Assembly: GCA_002899765.1 (NCBI GenBank)
Contig: PPDH01000026.1
Coordinates: 1 to 35,569 of the forward strand
Length of the DNA: 35,569 nucleotides
Direction: 5' to 3'
Origin: Sulfurimonas sp.
GTDB lineage: Bacteria; Campylobacterota; Campylobacteria; Campylobacterales; Sulfurimonadaceae
Shown: piece after piece, positions 11,084-35,201 of the stretch
Layout: the number at the start of each line of letters is the position of its first letter
Position numbering within the stretch: the stretch's first letter is position 1
Program-made: the position numbers and the translations under genes
Notes under the pieces: generated by a model
Seen by the model: the letters and a program-made list of their open reading frames with translations, nothing else
Database searches by the model: none
What the model was told of the DNA's origin: nothing

Positions 11084-12247
11084 TCAAAACGACAAACTCC
11101 ACTTAAAAAAGTAACTGCTCTTATATGCTCCAAATTCACTATCACTTTTACCGCTAAGTATCTGTGCACCAAGAGTAAAAGTGTTGTAATCATTGAGAGT
11201 GTAGCTCAAACTAGGCGATATAAAGCGCGAATTTTTATCTGTGAAACTCTATATATAGAGCAGCGAAGCATCTAAAAAGAGGTTAAAAGTATAAGCAATA
11301 CTGACTCCGCTGTAAAAGTTTGAATTTAGCAGATTTGATAAAATATCCGAATTAAGATTTAAAAGCGTCTCTTCGTAAGTAAAATCTTTTGAGCTGTAAA
11401 TCGTCTCAAATACCAATGTGACACCGTTTACAAAACCGTACTCAGCGCCCACAATTCCTTGAAAAAACTCCACTTCATACTCTTGATTAAGGACATTAAA
11501 AATAGTACTTTTTATATATCCCGCTTCACTTCTTAACTCTACTCCCGTATCTGCAAGATTACCCTCTATCTCATAAGCAAACATCTTAGTTTTATCTGAG
11601 TAGACAATATTTACTCCGACATCGGCAAAACCGAGATACCCTTTATAGCCTCCTCTATACTTAAACTTTTTTTCTGAGTTTTGGCTTGCTACGAAAGTGA
11701 CATGTGAAGTATCGCTTAGGTATCTAACGTATGAGAGAGCACTTACTCCGTAAATCTCATCCGGCTCTATCGCGTAGCTGTTTTTTGGGTTAAATATATT
11801 TGTAGGCGTCCATATCCGCCCTACTCCCATGGAGATGTTTTGCAAACCTGCCACCGCTCTGTTTTTTGCATCCTCATAACCTACATAGGCTCTGTAGAGT
11901 TTTGCATACATTGCTCCATTGCCGTAATCTTTAAAATTTGTCTGCGTGCTAAAAGAAGTATCTGAGCGGGAATTTTTCAGGTACGCGAAATCGTTTGAGT
12001 CTGTGTAAGCGTCTCCAAAATAATTTACTCCGTCGCCGATTATGCTTCCAAAATAGCCCTCATGTGAATAATCCAAATAGAGTCTAAACCTATTATAGTT
12101 GTACTCTTCTCTTTTTGCTTGCAGTCCTATATTTGAACCTTGAGAGATTGTAATGTTCGTATTTGTCACTCTGTAATTAACATCGCCAAAGAGTACTACG
12201 CCAAAAAAGAGCAGAAGAAAAAGTACTTTTTTAGAGTTCATTGTCAT
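11084..12247 (-). pseudogene. Outer-membrane beta-barrel with an in-frame amber stop
   Basis: A signal peptide (MTMNSKKVLFLLLFFGVVLFG) is followed by alternating aromatic/polar strands typical of an outer-membrane barrel, for example YNYNRFRLYLDYSHEGYFGS and RAYVGYEDAKNRAVAGLQNISMG. Translation meets TAG at 11249-11251 after 332 codons (DASLLYI-stop). The same frame stays open for 54 more codons to TGA at 11084-11086 and clearly continues the barrel: SPSLSYTLNDYNTFTLGAQI, ending KWSLSF with the C-terminal Phe expected for BAM insertion. Intact, it would be 387 residues. It is the last gene of the LolA/FtsX/ATPase operon and overlaps the ATPase end by 17 bp. It is probably the outer-membrane partner, of a DUF1302-like kind; that family is a guess. 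The in-frame continuation is directly visible. Confidence 0.75.
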
Positions 12248-12911
12248 CCACTATTGCCCCGTCATTTAGCGTAACGATTCTTCTGACACTCTCCATAATA
12301 AGCTCATCATGTTAAGCAAAAAGAATACTTACTCCCTCTTTTTCGTTAAGCTCTCTCATCATGTTCATAAGAATTTTGGAGTTGTTGGAATCAAGATTTG
12401 CCGTCGGCTCGTCTGCTAAGATGATTTTTGGTTTCGCCGCAACTGCACGTGCGACTGCAACTCTTTGCTGCTGCCCTCCGCTTAGTGCATTTGGGAGCGA
12501 TTTGAGCTTATTGTCAATTTCTAGAAGCGTTGCAACTTCCAGAACTCTTTGCTTTATCTCTTTATCGCTAAAGCCGCGGAGTCTCATCACAAAACCTATA
12601 TTTTCCTCGACATTTAAAACCGGTATAAGGTTATATGCCTGAAAAACAAATCCCAACTCATTCAGTCTCAGTGTCGTGCGTGACTCCTCATCCAAAGAAC
12701 TTATCTCTTTGTCTTGAAGATATATCTTGCCGCTGTCGCAACTATCAAGCGCGCCTATTATATTTAAAAGCGTAGTTTTGCCACATCCAGAAGGACCGCC
12801 AAAAAGCGTAAACTCTCCCGCTTCTATACTAAGATTTATATCGCGAAGCGCATGAACCTCTCTTGGTTAACCCTTAAAAAAATACTTGTTTACATCTTGG
12901 AGTTTTATCAT
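12231..12911 (-). pseudogene. LolD/MacB-type ABC ATPase with two in-frame stops
   Basis: The frame from the ATG at 12909-12911 to the TAA at 12231-12233 would give 226 residues, the normal LolD length. It contains every ABC motif: Walker [12 protein letters not shown] loop VFQAYNLIPVLNVEENI, signature LSGGQQQR, Walker B IILADEPTANLD and H-loop FA-stop-HDELIME. Two stops break it. TAA at 12867-12869 is codon 15, between KYFFKG and PREVHALRDI. TAA at 12312-12314 sits just before the switch histidine. No start codon lies between the first stop and Walker A, so internal initiation would lose the ATP site. Both stops are one base from sense codons (for example GAA and TCA). Its ATG overlaps the upstream permease stop (ATGA). 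Confidence 0.85.
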
Positions 12912-14119
12912 TTCTCTGCCTTAATCACTTCTATGGGATTGAGTTTTTTTATCTTTCTTAGCGGGATAATTACACTAAATATGGACGCAGCCATAATCGC
13001 GCCCAAAGTGGTCGTAAAGTAAGAAGTTTTTATGGTGGCGTATATTACCGCCTCATAACCCCACGTCGCTAAAGCATCGGAAAATGCGCTTAAATCTATA
13101 CCGTAATGCTCAAGATAGGTAAGCAAAACGGCTCCTAAAAGCGCTCCGCTGAGATATCCTAGAACCCCGATAACTATAGACTCTAAAAATATCTGAATGG
13201 TTATATATTTGTAGTGCATGCCCACGCTTATCATGATTCCAAATTCGCGGACTCTGTCCAATATGGAGACATACATGACGCCGAAAATCCCTATGAATAC
13301 GACTCCCATAACTATTAGTAATGTTACCGAGTTAAATATAATCATCAAATCCTGCATCTGTTTTATCATAGGCTGCAACTCTAAAAAACTTTTGACATCA
13401 AGATTTGCAAATGCTATCTTAAGTTTGCCGTAAAGCTCTTTATCTTCGCCTCTGATAGCAATCTGCATAGCATTTTTGGAGTCGGTTCCTAGAAATTTAT
13501 GCAGCTGATTGATATCTATGAAAATAGCGCTGTTGTCAAGGGAGATATTTGTTGTCTGAACAATGGCTCTAACGTAAAGCGCTATAGAGTTTATCTCTCC
13601 TCTTATATCCTGTGTGGAAAAAACAACCTTTGAACCCACCCCGACTTTGAGTGTTTTTGCAAGTTCTATCCCTACGATAGCACCCTGTTTTTGCAAATCT
13701 ATACTGCCCTCTTTCAAAAACTCGCTAAACTTTCCAAAACGCTCCTCCTCTTGTAAATCTATGCCGACAACGGATGCAAACGATGATTTTCTCGCAGTTG
13801 AGAGAAGCCCTTCTGCTTTTACTCTTAAAACAACCGCTTGGGCGCCTTGCATATTCTCTATTTGTGCTTTTATTTCATCTGCATTTTTTATCATATATGC
13901 TAAATCTTTGTTTATTCTATACTCTTTTGCAAAGATGCTTATATCCCCGCTGTCACTTCTTTTGTTCTTATCTACCATGTTCTCGACCATGCCGTCGTAA
14001 ATACCTTCTATAGCAAGCATCATGCTCATGCTCACCGCAATCATGATGATAACTAGAAGTGTTCTGGAGCGTCTTAAAAATGAGTTTTTCCATGCCAGTT
14101 TTAGTATAAGCTTATACAT
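12908..14119 (-). CDS. FtsX/MacB-like ABC permease (second)
   Basis: This 403-residue inner-membrane protein is read from the ATG at 14117-14119, which has GAGG a few bases upstream; a TTG 15 bp earlier lies inside that ribosome binding site. It has the MacB/LolC layout: an N-terminal helix after KLAWKNSFLRRSRTLLVIIMIAVSMSMML, a periplasmic domain (about 45-270) and three C-terminal helices with VREFGIMISVGMHYKYITIQIFLESIVIGVLGY and IPLRKIKKLNPIEVIKAEK at the end. The last motif is the typical end of such permeases. It overlaps the first permease gene by 8 bp. It has no intact ATPase in this operon. Confidence 0.9.
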   Translation of the reverse strand: MYKLILKLAWKNSFLRRSRTLLVIIMIAVSMSMMLAIEGIYDGMVENMVDKNKRSDSGDISIFAKEYRINKDLAYMIKNADEIKAQIENMQGAQAVVLRVKAEGLLSTARKSSFASVVGIDLQEEERFGKFSEFLKEGSIDLQKQGAIVGIELAKTLKVGVGSKVVFSTQDIRGEINSIALYVRAIVQTTNISLDNSAIFIDINQLHKFLGTDSKNAMQIAIRGEDKELYGKLKIAFANLDVKSFLELQPMIKQMQDLMIIFNSVTLLIVMGVVFIGIFGVMYVSILDRVREFGIMISVGMHYKYITIQIFLESIVIGVLGYLSGALLGAVLLTYLEHYGIDLSAFSDALATWGYEAVIYATIKTSYFTTTLGAIMAASIFSVIIPLRKIKKLNPIEVIKAEK

Positions 14120-15332
14120 GTCTTGTCGCCTCAATCGGTCTAAATGAGTTTATGTACATGTAAGGGTACAAAATACTCAAAAAATTCAGCAGATAGATAA
14201 CTCCGACATTCCAACCGATAGTAAATAGATTATAATCAAATGTTATCTCATCTGAGACGATTCCGTAATCCTTGTACATGTCGGCAATCCCATCTATAAC
14301 GATAGGATTTATATTATAATAGTAACAGATATAAGCGGCAATCGGCGTTGCCAAAAGAGTTGCAAAGATAGAAAGCAGAGCAATTTCATAAAAAAGAAGC
14401 AAGAAAATATTTCTTTTTGAAAGCCCTATACAACGCAAAACACCAAACTCTTTTATACGCGAGCTGACATTTACAAAACCGTAAATCATAATCACAAAAA
14501 AGATTACAACCATAAACAAAGAGAGGGAGATATACCCAAAAACGGAATCAATTTCCATAATCTCAACCATACTCTTCATAAGCGTCTTCCATGTAAGAGA
14601 CTCTAGATTTTCATCATCAAGCATTGAGATGATTTGCTCATTTACCTTGTCTGCATCCTCTATATTTTTCAGCTTTAGAGTTATATAAGAAGCTCTATTT
14701 TTTGCATTCATCAACTCATCAAAATAACTTCTTGCAACAAACGAGGTACTTGAATCAAACTCAAACGAGCCTGTTTTAAATACTCCGCATACCCTAAGCA
14801 TATCAGCCGCAAAAGAGCCGTCACTTGCGCTTCCGATAAAAGCAACCTCATCGCCGATGCCGAGTTTTAGTTTTTTGAGCAGTTCTGCGCCCATGTAGAT
14901 ACAGTTTGCAGAGCCATCATCCAAAAAAGAACCCTCTATAAGTGCCGACTTAAGAGAGCTTAAAACTCTCTCCTTGTTTGGCTCTATTCCCGCTACCATA
15001 GAGGCAGCTGAGTACTCCTTGTTTGAGAGCAGGCCGTATGTCTCATACCTTGGACTGTACTCCTCAATAGCATCTATTTTTTCAAGTTTATCCGTAATGA
15101 CTTTAACGTCTTGTATAAGATATTCGTTGCCGCCGATATCGCGATAATCTTTACGATAAATCTCTATAGCGCCTGTATAGATTTTTAGCGAATTTTCAAG
15201 CATGGAGTTATGTGAACCGTCTTGCAGAGATATATAGAGTATAAAAAGCATCGTCGATACAAAGGTCAAAACAGCCGTTGCGATGGAGCGTCCTTTGTAA
15301 AAGAGAATGTTTTTAAGTGCAAGTTTAAACAT
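14112..15332 (-). CDS. FtsX/MacB-like ABC permease (first)
   Basis: This 406-residue protein has the same architecture as its neighbour: MFKLALKNILFYKGRSIATAVLTFVS at the N-terminus, a large periplasmic domain containing SPRYETYGLLSN and VCGVFKTGSFEFDSSTSFVARSYF, then three helices with SRIKEFGVLRCIGLSKRNIFLLLFYEIALLSIFA and the ending SFRPIEATRHV. The two permeases are paralogues and probably form a heterodimer like LolC/LolE. It follows the LolA-like gene after 11 bp. In the family such proteins are mechanotransmitters that extract lipids, lipoproteins or peptides from the inner membrane; the substrate here is unknown. Confidence 0.92.
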   Translation of the reverse strand: MFKLALKNILFYKGRSIATAVLTFVSTMLFILYISLQDGSHNSMLENSLKIYTGAIEIYRKDYRDIGGNEYLIQDVKVITDKLEKIDAIEEYSPRYETYGLLSNKEYSAASMVAGIEPNKERVLSSLKSALIEGSFLDDGSANCIYMGAELLKKLKLGIGDEVAFIGSASDGSFAADMLRVCGVFKTGSFEFDSSTSFVARSYFDELMNAKNRASYITLKLKNIEDADKVNEQIISMLDDENLESLTWKTLMKSMVEIMEIDSVFGYISLSLFMVVIFFVIMIYGFVNVSSRIKEFGVLRCIGLSKRNIFLLLFYEIALLSIFATLLATPIAAYICYYYNINPIVIDGIADMYKDYGIVSDEITFDYNLFTIGWNVGVIYLLNFLSILYPYMYINSFRPIEATRHV

Positions 15333-15343
15333 TTCTGCTCATC

Positions 15344-16072
15344 CTACTTTGAAAATCTCTTCAAGGCGCTTTTTGTAAAGTACTCTTCTGATATTTTCGT
15401 ATCATACTCAACCTCTTCTAAAATCATCTCCGTGTACCTGCCCTCAGTATCGCTTGATTGTACCATCCAGTAGGTCGGGATATAGTAATTGCCGACCTTT
15501 TTTACATCTTTATAGATAAAATATCTTACCTCTTTACCCTCTTCATCGTAAAATATATCTTTGTGAGATGTGTAGGTCGTAGTGTCTATATTAAGAGTGA
15601 TTTTTCCCCAGACCACGGGAGCATTCTCTTTTGGCGTAAGTTCAATTGTTACTACACTGCCCTCTCTTTTAATGATTTTTGGCTCATAATCCTCTACAAT
15701 CGAACTCTGTTTTACCATATCATCGTTTGTTATATCGCTTCCCATCCATTTTTGAAGCATCATGGAGGGCGGTATTTTTATGATTCTCTCTATCTTTGGA
15801 ACATACTGCCACATCTCTCTATCCAGACTCAAAAAGGTGATTCCTTCATCTTTTGGAGGATATATAATTTTTACAAAGCTCTTTTTTGTTCCCTGCGAAT
15901 AACTCTGCATCTTCATAACACGTTCGTGCCCCATAGAGACTATCTTCATGTTTAACTTCATATAGATATTTTTGCCTCTGAAGTTTTCATCAAGTTTTTT
16001 GATTATCTCATGCGCCTCATCACCAATGAGGTGCGCCATAAATATAAAAATAACTACAACAATCTTGCCCAT
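15344..16072 (-). CDS. LolA-like outer-membrane lipoprotein-sorting protein
   Basis: This 242-residue periplasmic protein has a signal peptide (MGKIVVVIFIFMAHLIG). It belongs to the LolA-like family that accompanies RND or MacB-type exporters (COG2834 type) rather than true LolA. The tell-tale motif is WQYVPKIERIIKIPPSMMLQKWMGSDITNDDMV, followed by VVWGKITLNID and VGNYYIPTYWMV strands of an open beta barrel with a lipid-binding cavity. It is first in the operon, with AAAGG six bases before its ATG. It would carry a hydrophobic cargo from the permeases to the outer-membrane protein. Confidence 0.9.
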   Translation of the reverse strand: MGKIVVVIFIFMAHLIGDEAHEIIKKLDENFRGKNIYMKLNMKIVSMGHERVMKMQSYSQGTKKSFVKIIYPPKDEGITFLSLDREMWQYVPKIERIIKIPPSMMLQKWMGSDITNDDMVKQSSIVEDYEPKIIKREGSVVTIELTPKENAPVVWGKITLNIDTTTYTSHKDIFYDEEGKEVRYFIYKDVKKVGNYYIPTYWMVQSSDTEGRYTEMILEEVEYDTKISEEYFTKSALKRFSK

Positions 16073-35000: not shown

Positions 35001-35201
35001 TTATTTTTTTGCGTAACGCTGGTTGAATTTCTCAATTCTTCCTGCAGTATCTACCATTCTCTCAGAACCTGTAAAGAAAGGGTGACACTCATTACAGATG
35101 TCAATTCTCATCTCATCTTTTTGACTTAATGTCTCAAAAGTGTTTCCACATGCACAAGTTACAGTACATGTTACTAATTTCGGGTGGATATCTTTTTTCA
35201 T
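35001..35201 (-). CDS. rpmE: Ribosomal protein L31 (zinc-binding type)
   Basis: This 66-residue protein begins [22 protein letters not shown] and contains [16 protein letters not shown], the L31 signature. Cysteines at 12, 16, 18, 36 and 39 include a C+ (zinc-ligating) set, so it is the zinc form of L31, which can be exchanged for a Cys-less paralogue when zinc is low; no such paralogue is in view. It is a component of the large ribosomal subunit at the intersubunit bridge. AAAGG precedes its ATG. Confidence 0.96.

Follow-up and report, generated by a model that had tools for sequence, protein, structure and literature searches.

Three in-frame stop codons in a LolCDE-like export operon of a draft Sulfurimonas genome are most likely consensus errors

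The last two genes of an export operon in a draft genome of Sulfurimonas sp. are interrupted by three in-frame stop codons. Because similar stops break many unrelated genes of the same genome, including genes that the cell needs, they are most likely assembly errors and not a sign of exporter loss. We assign a probability of roughly 84% to the reading that the three stops are consensus errors and belong to a set of wrong G:C to T:A bases scattered over the whole genome. The window, by which we mean the whole analysed stretch of 35,569 nucleotides, is one contig (C31) of the source genome (G000), which comprises 2,390,858 bases in 45 contigs with a completeness of 98.5% and a contamination of 3.1%. 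The genes of the operon and the three stops are as follows.

15344..16072, minus strand: gene of a LolA-like periplasmic protein, at the head of the operon, without internal stop (Pfam LolA_like, 8.6e-46)
14112..15332, minus strand: FtsX/MacB-type permease 1, without internal stop (Pfam FtsX, 1.9e-12; MacB_PCD, 4.3e-9)
12908..14134, minus strand: FtsX/MacB-type permease 2, without internal stop (Pfam FtsX, 1.5e-14; MacB_PCD, 1.1e-7)
12234..12911, minus strand: LolD/MacB-type ABC ATPase gene with two in-frame TAA codons (Pfam ABC_tran, 2.1e-32, stops read as X)
11084..12241, minus strand: outer-membrane beta-barrel-like gene (putative barrel), final gene of the operon, with one in-frame TAG codon
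12867..12869, minus strand: in-frame TAA, ATPase codon 15; Glu in nine close orthologues, one of them with Asp
12312..12314, minus strand: in-frame TAA, ATPase codon 200, immediately preceding the H-loop His; Ser in nine close orthologues
11249..11251, minus strand: in-frame TAG, barrel gene codon 331; Glu in nine close orthologues

The ATG of the ATPase gene at 12911 overlaps the 3′-end of the permease 2 gene. A LolA-like protein, FtsX-type permeases and an ABC ATPase occur together in this operon, which is the gene membership of a LolCDE-like system. The LolA-like protein, the two FtsX/MacB_PCD permeases, the LolD-like ATPase and the organization in a single operon are shared with LolCDE/MacB-type ABC exporters, which we take to be the class called “type VII”. 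Unlike these exporters, the operon ends with a barrel-like protein of its own, for which no Pfam family was found at an E-value of 0.001 (stop read as X), and its occurrence in the genus is patchy. In the living organism the operon most likely codes for a LolCDE-like exporter that is intact, with a LolA-like carrier, two permeases, an ATPase and the barrel, and a working transporter would be expected. Several variations of the gene order were seen in relatives. In G055 (L076:5140-5682) and G015 (L081:4774-5217), an additional small gene, similar in the two genomes, immediately precedes the ATPase gene; by eye, its start resembles a signal peptide. Permease 2 and the ATPase are about 1 to 5 kb apart in G015 and at the loci L107 and L108. 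A gene of 382-389 amino acids, membrane-protein-like by eye, is located between ATPase and barrel in G002 (L082:5777-6946) and G014 (L087:1496-2644), the latter genome also harboring a second, partial ATPase copy.

An earlier note, made from the sequence of the window, had described the three stops as nonsense codons without frameshift behind three intact upstream genes. Their coordinates and codons were borne out, and the genes of the LolA-like protein and of both permeases are indeed free of internal stops. The ATPase and barrel frames align with their relatives over the whole length, and an indel is not needed at any of the stops; the barrel frame, which begins at 12241, reaches its natural stop, ending at 11084, 54 sense codons beyond the TAG. 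The comparison with orthologues proposed in that note found the complete copies in relatives unbroken, with Glu or Asp, Ser, and Glu at the three positions. In the alignment, none of 18 ATPase copies from 17 relatives contains an internal stop, where a TAA at codon 222 of the G002 copy is not counted as internal since the copies of relatives end there also. Similarly, a stop at codon 4 in one relative's permease 2 alignment was taken to lie upstream of the true start. The barrel query matches 20 and the ATPase query, at a stricter cut-off, 18 of 99 genomes, the source genome counted in; of the barrel matches, two are contig-end fragments (G016 and G041) and one aligns in two pieces (G007). Nine named loci match the barrel, namely four from Sulfurimonas, two from Sulfurovum, and three labelled as “bacterium” or Epsilonproteobacteria. 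Position 35001 of the window was considered as a fourth stop and rejected, as it is the end of one gene before the next; the gene ending there, recognized by eye, is presumably that of ribosomal protein L31.

Further evidence comes from two other contigs of the genome. A search for stops flanked on either side by coding signal of a single frame, run with identical thresholds for all genomes, yielded 30 strong candidates from a 400 kb sample of the source genome (contigs C2 and C4), of which at least two look antisense, versus 4 in 400 kb of relatives (three in 200 kb of G038 and one in 200 kb of G031), of which at least one is a gene boundary. When the stops were read as X, an NCBIfam match crossed the stop in 17 of 20 read-through proteins, these being Icd, MgtE, FtsH, RuvA, LeuB, YchF, SdhA/FrdA, AckA, NifE, RbbA, CheB, an RND permease, SecA, MltD, Pta, Dxr, and FlgD. 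For FtsH, the RND permease, MltD and FlgD the matches are below the curated cut-off of NCBIfam, and for SecA the best family match is split while other family matches cross the stop. The three uncounted proteins are two histidine kinases, one of which has weaker matches that do span the stop (e.g. 368-707), and a frame whose NifD match begins past the stop. In alignments with solved structures, the residue facing the stop is Glu for Icd, Glu in the best match for AckA, and Ser for RuvA. The sdhA/frdA orthologue is also broken; related proteins are present elsewhere in the genome.

Six of the interrupted genes, secA, dxr, aspS, acnB, ychF and leuB, occur in a single copy with one internal stop. 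With the source genome included, matches were obtained in 58 (secA), 53 (dxr), 56 (aspS) and 55 (acnB) of 60 genomes, and in 28 (ychF) and 30 (leuB) of 31. Codon alignments of 30 taxa for secA, dxr, aspS and acnB have an internal stop within the aligned part in the source genome only. The searches with secA, acnB, ychF and leuB listed no internal stop for any relative, and those with dxr and aspS flag a stop inside for some relatives. SecA, AspRS and Dxr are essential, and a cell in which all of them are truncated would not grow. Stops thus occur in unrelated genes, in essential single-copy genes among them, and more often than in close relatives examined by an identical method, which supports the assembly or base-call problem that the earlier note had listed among its explanations. 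By a simple test, no frame shift was found in 74 orthologues.

The stops also have a uniform base-change spectrum. The comparison was made with G004 and G011, the closest relatives of the source genome by SecA and AspRS; G011 is a complete genome whose open frames served as queries, so that it is without stops by construction, and G004, not being a query, is the free control. In 150 orthologues of G011, 32 stops were found at codon 12 or later, and at 25 of these both sisters hold Glu, Ser or Gly. The other seven were not counted as clear: at five the sisters disagree, with G004 also having a stop at one of these places, one is near the start codon, and one is at a shared Cys codon near the gene end. 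Strict scoring, i.e. an identical codon in both sisters, left 11 stops, and all 11 are G:C to T:A changes, a class that makes up 0.318 of the exposed sites (p = 3e-6). No strict stop was found for G004 in the orthologue set, only one non-strict stop near a start codon. In a set of 22,730 codons, stops stand in place of Glu in 11 cases, of Ser in four and of Gly in two, and none was found where the sisters share Gln, Lys, Leu, Tyr, Arg, Trp or Cys. The three stops of the window fit the same class, one of them with an extra silent change from the codon held by most close relatives. No target motif was seen by eye in 24 stop contexts.

How such errors could have arisen is suggested by the spectrum. 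Oxidative damage or a similar error in the template or library might have introduced the changes, G:C to T:A being the class that results from oxidised guanine, and too few template molecules or reads may have left the damage error standing in the consensus. In the sections of Cooley and Wright (2024; PMC11017572) drawn on here, an excess of internal stops is given as a mark of assembly error, low-quality reads are described to raise mainly internal stops rather than frame shifts, and metagenome-assembled genomes are said not to have been assessed. Our genome resembles the spurious pseudogenes of these sections in the excess of internal stops over unrelated genes, in the clean relatives and in showing internal stops instead of frame shifts. 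It differs in that its stops represent one base-change class, whereas these sections describe no spectrum. Artefacts of G>T type from oxidised guanine are characterized, in the part of PMC12390751 used here, as strand-asymmetric mismatches in sequencing reads. The change class and an origin outside the living cell would be common to both cases; unlike those read-level mismatches, the errors proposed here would have reached the consensus. If so, mining this genome would yield false pseudogenes and false losses in nitrogen fixation, TCA enzymes, isoprenoid synthesis and the exporter, and the one-class spectrum suggests a screen for assemblies with this type of damage, in which internal stops are sorted by the codon of the relatives.

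Random error would hit sense codons as well, and missense changes of the class are indeed seen. Changes from Gly to Val or Cys and from Arg to Leu amount to eight in the source genome, versus none in G011 and one in G004. At invariant residues of the window genes, the G:C to T:A class accounts for 10 of 32 unique single-base changes, compared with 28 of 228 in 12 relatives. In four core genes, 10 unique changes were found at residues invariant in relatives, six of them in the class and two of those six being stops. A lean to the class in these four genes is common to G030 (6/12 departures) and G005 (5/10), which counts against error. Seven core genes were picked for holding stops, so that their missense counts are biased; the orthologue set of contig C4 is free of this bias. 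On contig C2, however, missense changes are fewer than random error of the class predicts: under a common rate 4.0 stops, 6.7 radical and 13.7 moderate changes are expected, and the observed numbers are 9, 5 and 8 (p = 0.007). The combination of C2 and C4 gives p = 0.007 too, and C4 alone fits (p = 0.38). Part of the misfit of C2 is explained by the choice of this stretch around known stops, which inflates the stop count. At conserved codons the source genome has 8 stops and 25 missense changes of the class, with 25 missense changes in G011 and 19 in G004, i.e. no missense excess. A strict-context test for the effect of the bases after the changed G, low in power, found changes at 3 of 652 stop sites and 21 of 4176 missense sites, with 33/4477 and 12/3944 for missense sites in the sisters. 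Two further findings count against the error reading: the two copies agree fully in each of four duplicated tRNA gene pairs, and the assembly otherwise looks good (45 contigs, 98.5% complete), which is unusual for low depth.

In the 400 kb sample of this assembly, six of eight short N runs share the same two flanks (L117:8166, L119:11984, L122:4389, L124:1150, L125:2649, L125:5061), as if a repeated element had been omitted at scaffold joins. The window holds no copy of one of these flanks.

Instead of consensus errors, the stops could be true genomic mutations of a mutator lineage whose changes are of the G:C to T:A type and whose sequenced population or clone is laden with nonsense alleles. 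We consider this unlikely, although it ranks first among the alternatives. True MutY (match of 1.7e-73 or better) is present in 22 of 37 genus members searched. It was not found in G000, where the best match is 3.1e-23, nor in G004, G011, G020 and G031, G011 and G031 being single-contig genomes; the weaker matches are probably endonuclease III relatives. All 11 strict stops being G:C to T:A is what such a lineage would produce, and the stronger rise of stops than of radical and moderate changes also speaks for it. However, the class shows no rise among synonymous and conservative changes in the source genome, and the sister G004 lacks MutY as well yet has no strict stop. Furthermore, secA, aspS and dxr are present once each, and growing cells cannot become fixed for null alleles of them. 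As the sole cause, MutY loss was rejected, since both G004, the free control, and G011 are also without it.

Even less probable is a real and recent inactivation of the exporter, in which loss of the ATPase relaxed selection on the barrel, which then decayed too, much as the earlier note had put forward. The operon can be lost: the barrel query, with matches in about a fifth of the genomes, gave none in G004 and G011, and in G041 an apparent deletion leaves the lolA-like gene abutting the terminal part of the barrel gene (L092:1-400, at a contig end). The grouping of three stops within 1620 bases of one operon, called unusual in that note, is indeed so within the window (p = 0.006 for three random points). 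For a genome with such a stop density this does not hold. With the stop densities measured on C4 and C2, some 3.5 to 8 stops would be expected per window, a slight overestimate because stops were taken from 150 orthologues and codons from the 132 with G004 too. Three stops are hence not above the genome average, and with about 67 windows of this size in the genome one such cluster is unremarkable. Similar stops are moreover present in many other genes, the essential secA, aspS and dxr among them. Neither the ATPase nor the barrel gene shows relaxed selection on the source lineage. With stops masked and the optimizer limited to 60 iterations, dN/dS was 0.053 against a background of 0.061 for the ATPase (likelihood-ratio test, p = 0.71) and 0.124 against 0.115 for the barrel (p = 0.77). 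Both genes are under ordinary purifying selection and do not evolve as pseudogenes. The same analysis of the upstream genes, proposed in the earlier note, placed lolA (0.055) and permease 2 (0.105) at background and found only permease 1 (14112-15332) raised on this lineage (0.200 vs 0.087, p = 8e-4). Operon-specific decay was rejected by the stop scan of C2 and C4 together with dN/dS.

To an equally small degree we credit the idea that the stops are real and that a MutY-less Sulfurimonas lineage tolerates hundreds of G:C to T:A nonsense codons, in excess of the corresponding missense changes and in single-copy essential genes too, through novel reading or repair. Tolerated stops would be compatible with the excess of stops over missense changes in C2, with the unraised missense count at conserved codons and with the missing MutY. 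If reads confirmed them, against expectation, this would be a striking nonsense tolerance.

Recoding or efficient readthrough, by which the stops would be translated and the genes functional, is the least probable explanation of all: conserved sequence and purifying selection past the stops would fit it, but TAA stands at both Glu and Ser positions and TGA at Gly, readthrough should presumably not favour Glu, Ser and Gly, the 22,730-codon set has no stop at the other shared residues named above, and no tRNA with a stop anticodon is among the 40 found, a set that is incomplete in that Ala and Ile tRNAs were not seen. Six tRNA genes of the source genome lie within 0.9 kb of contig C5 (C5:3896-4761, L101), and those for Val and Asp have identical second copies.
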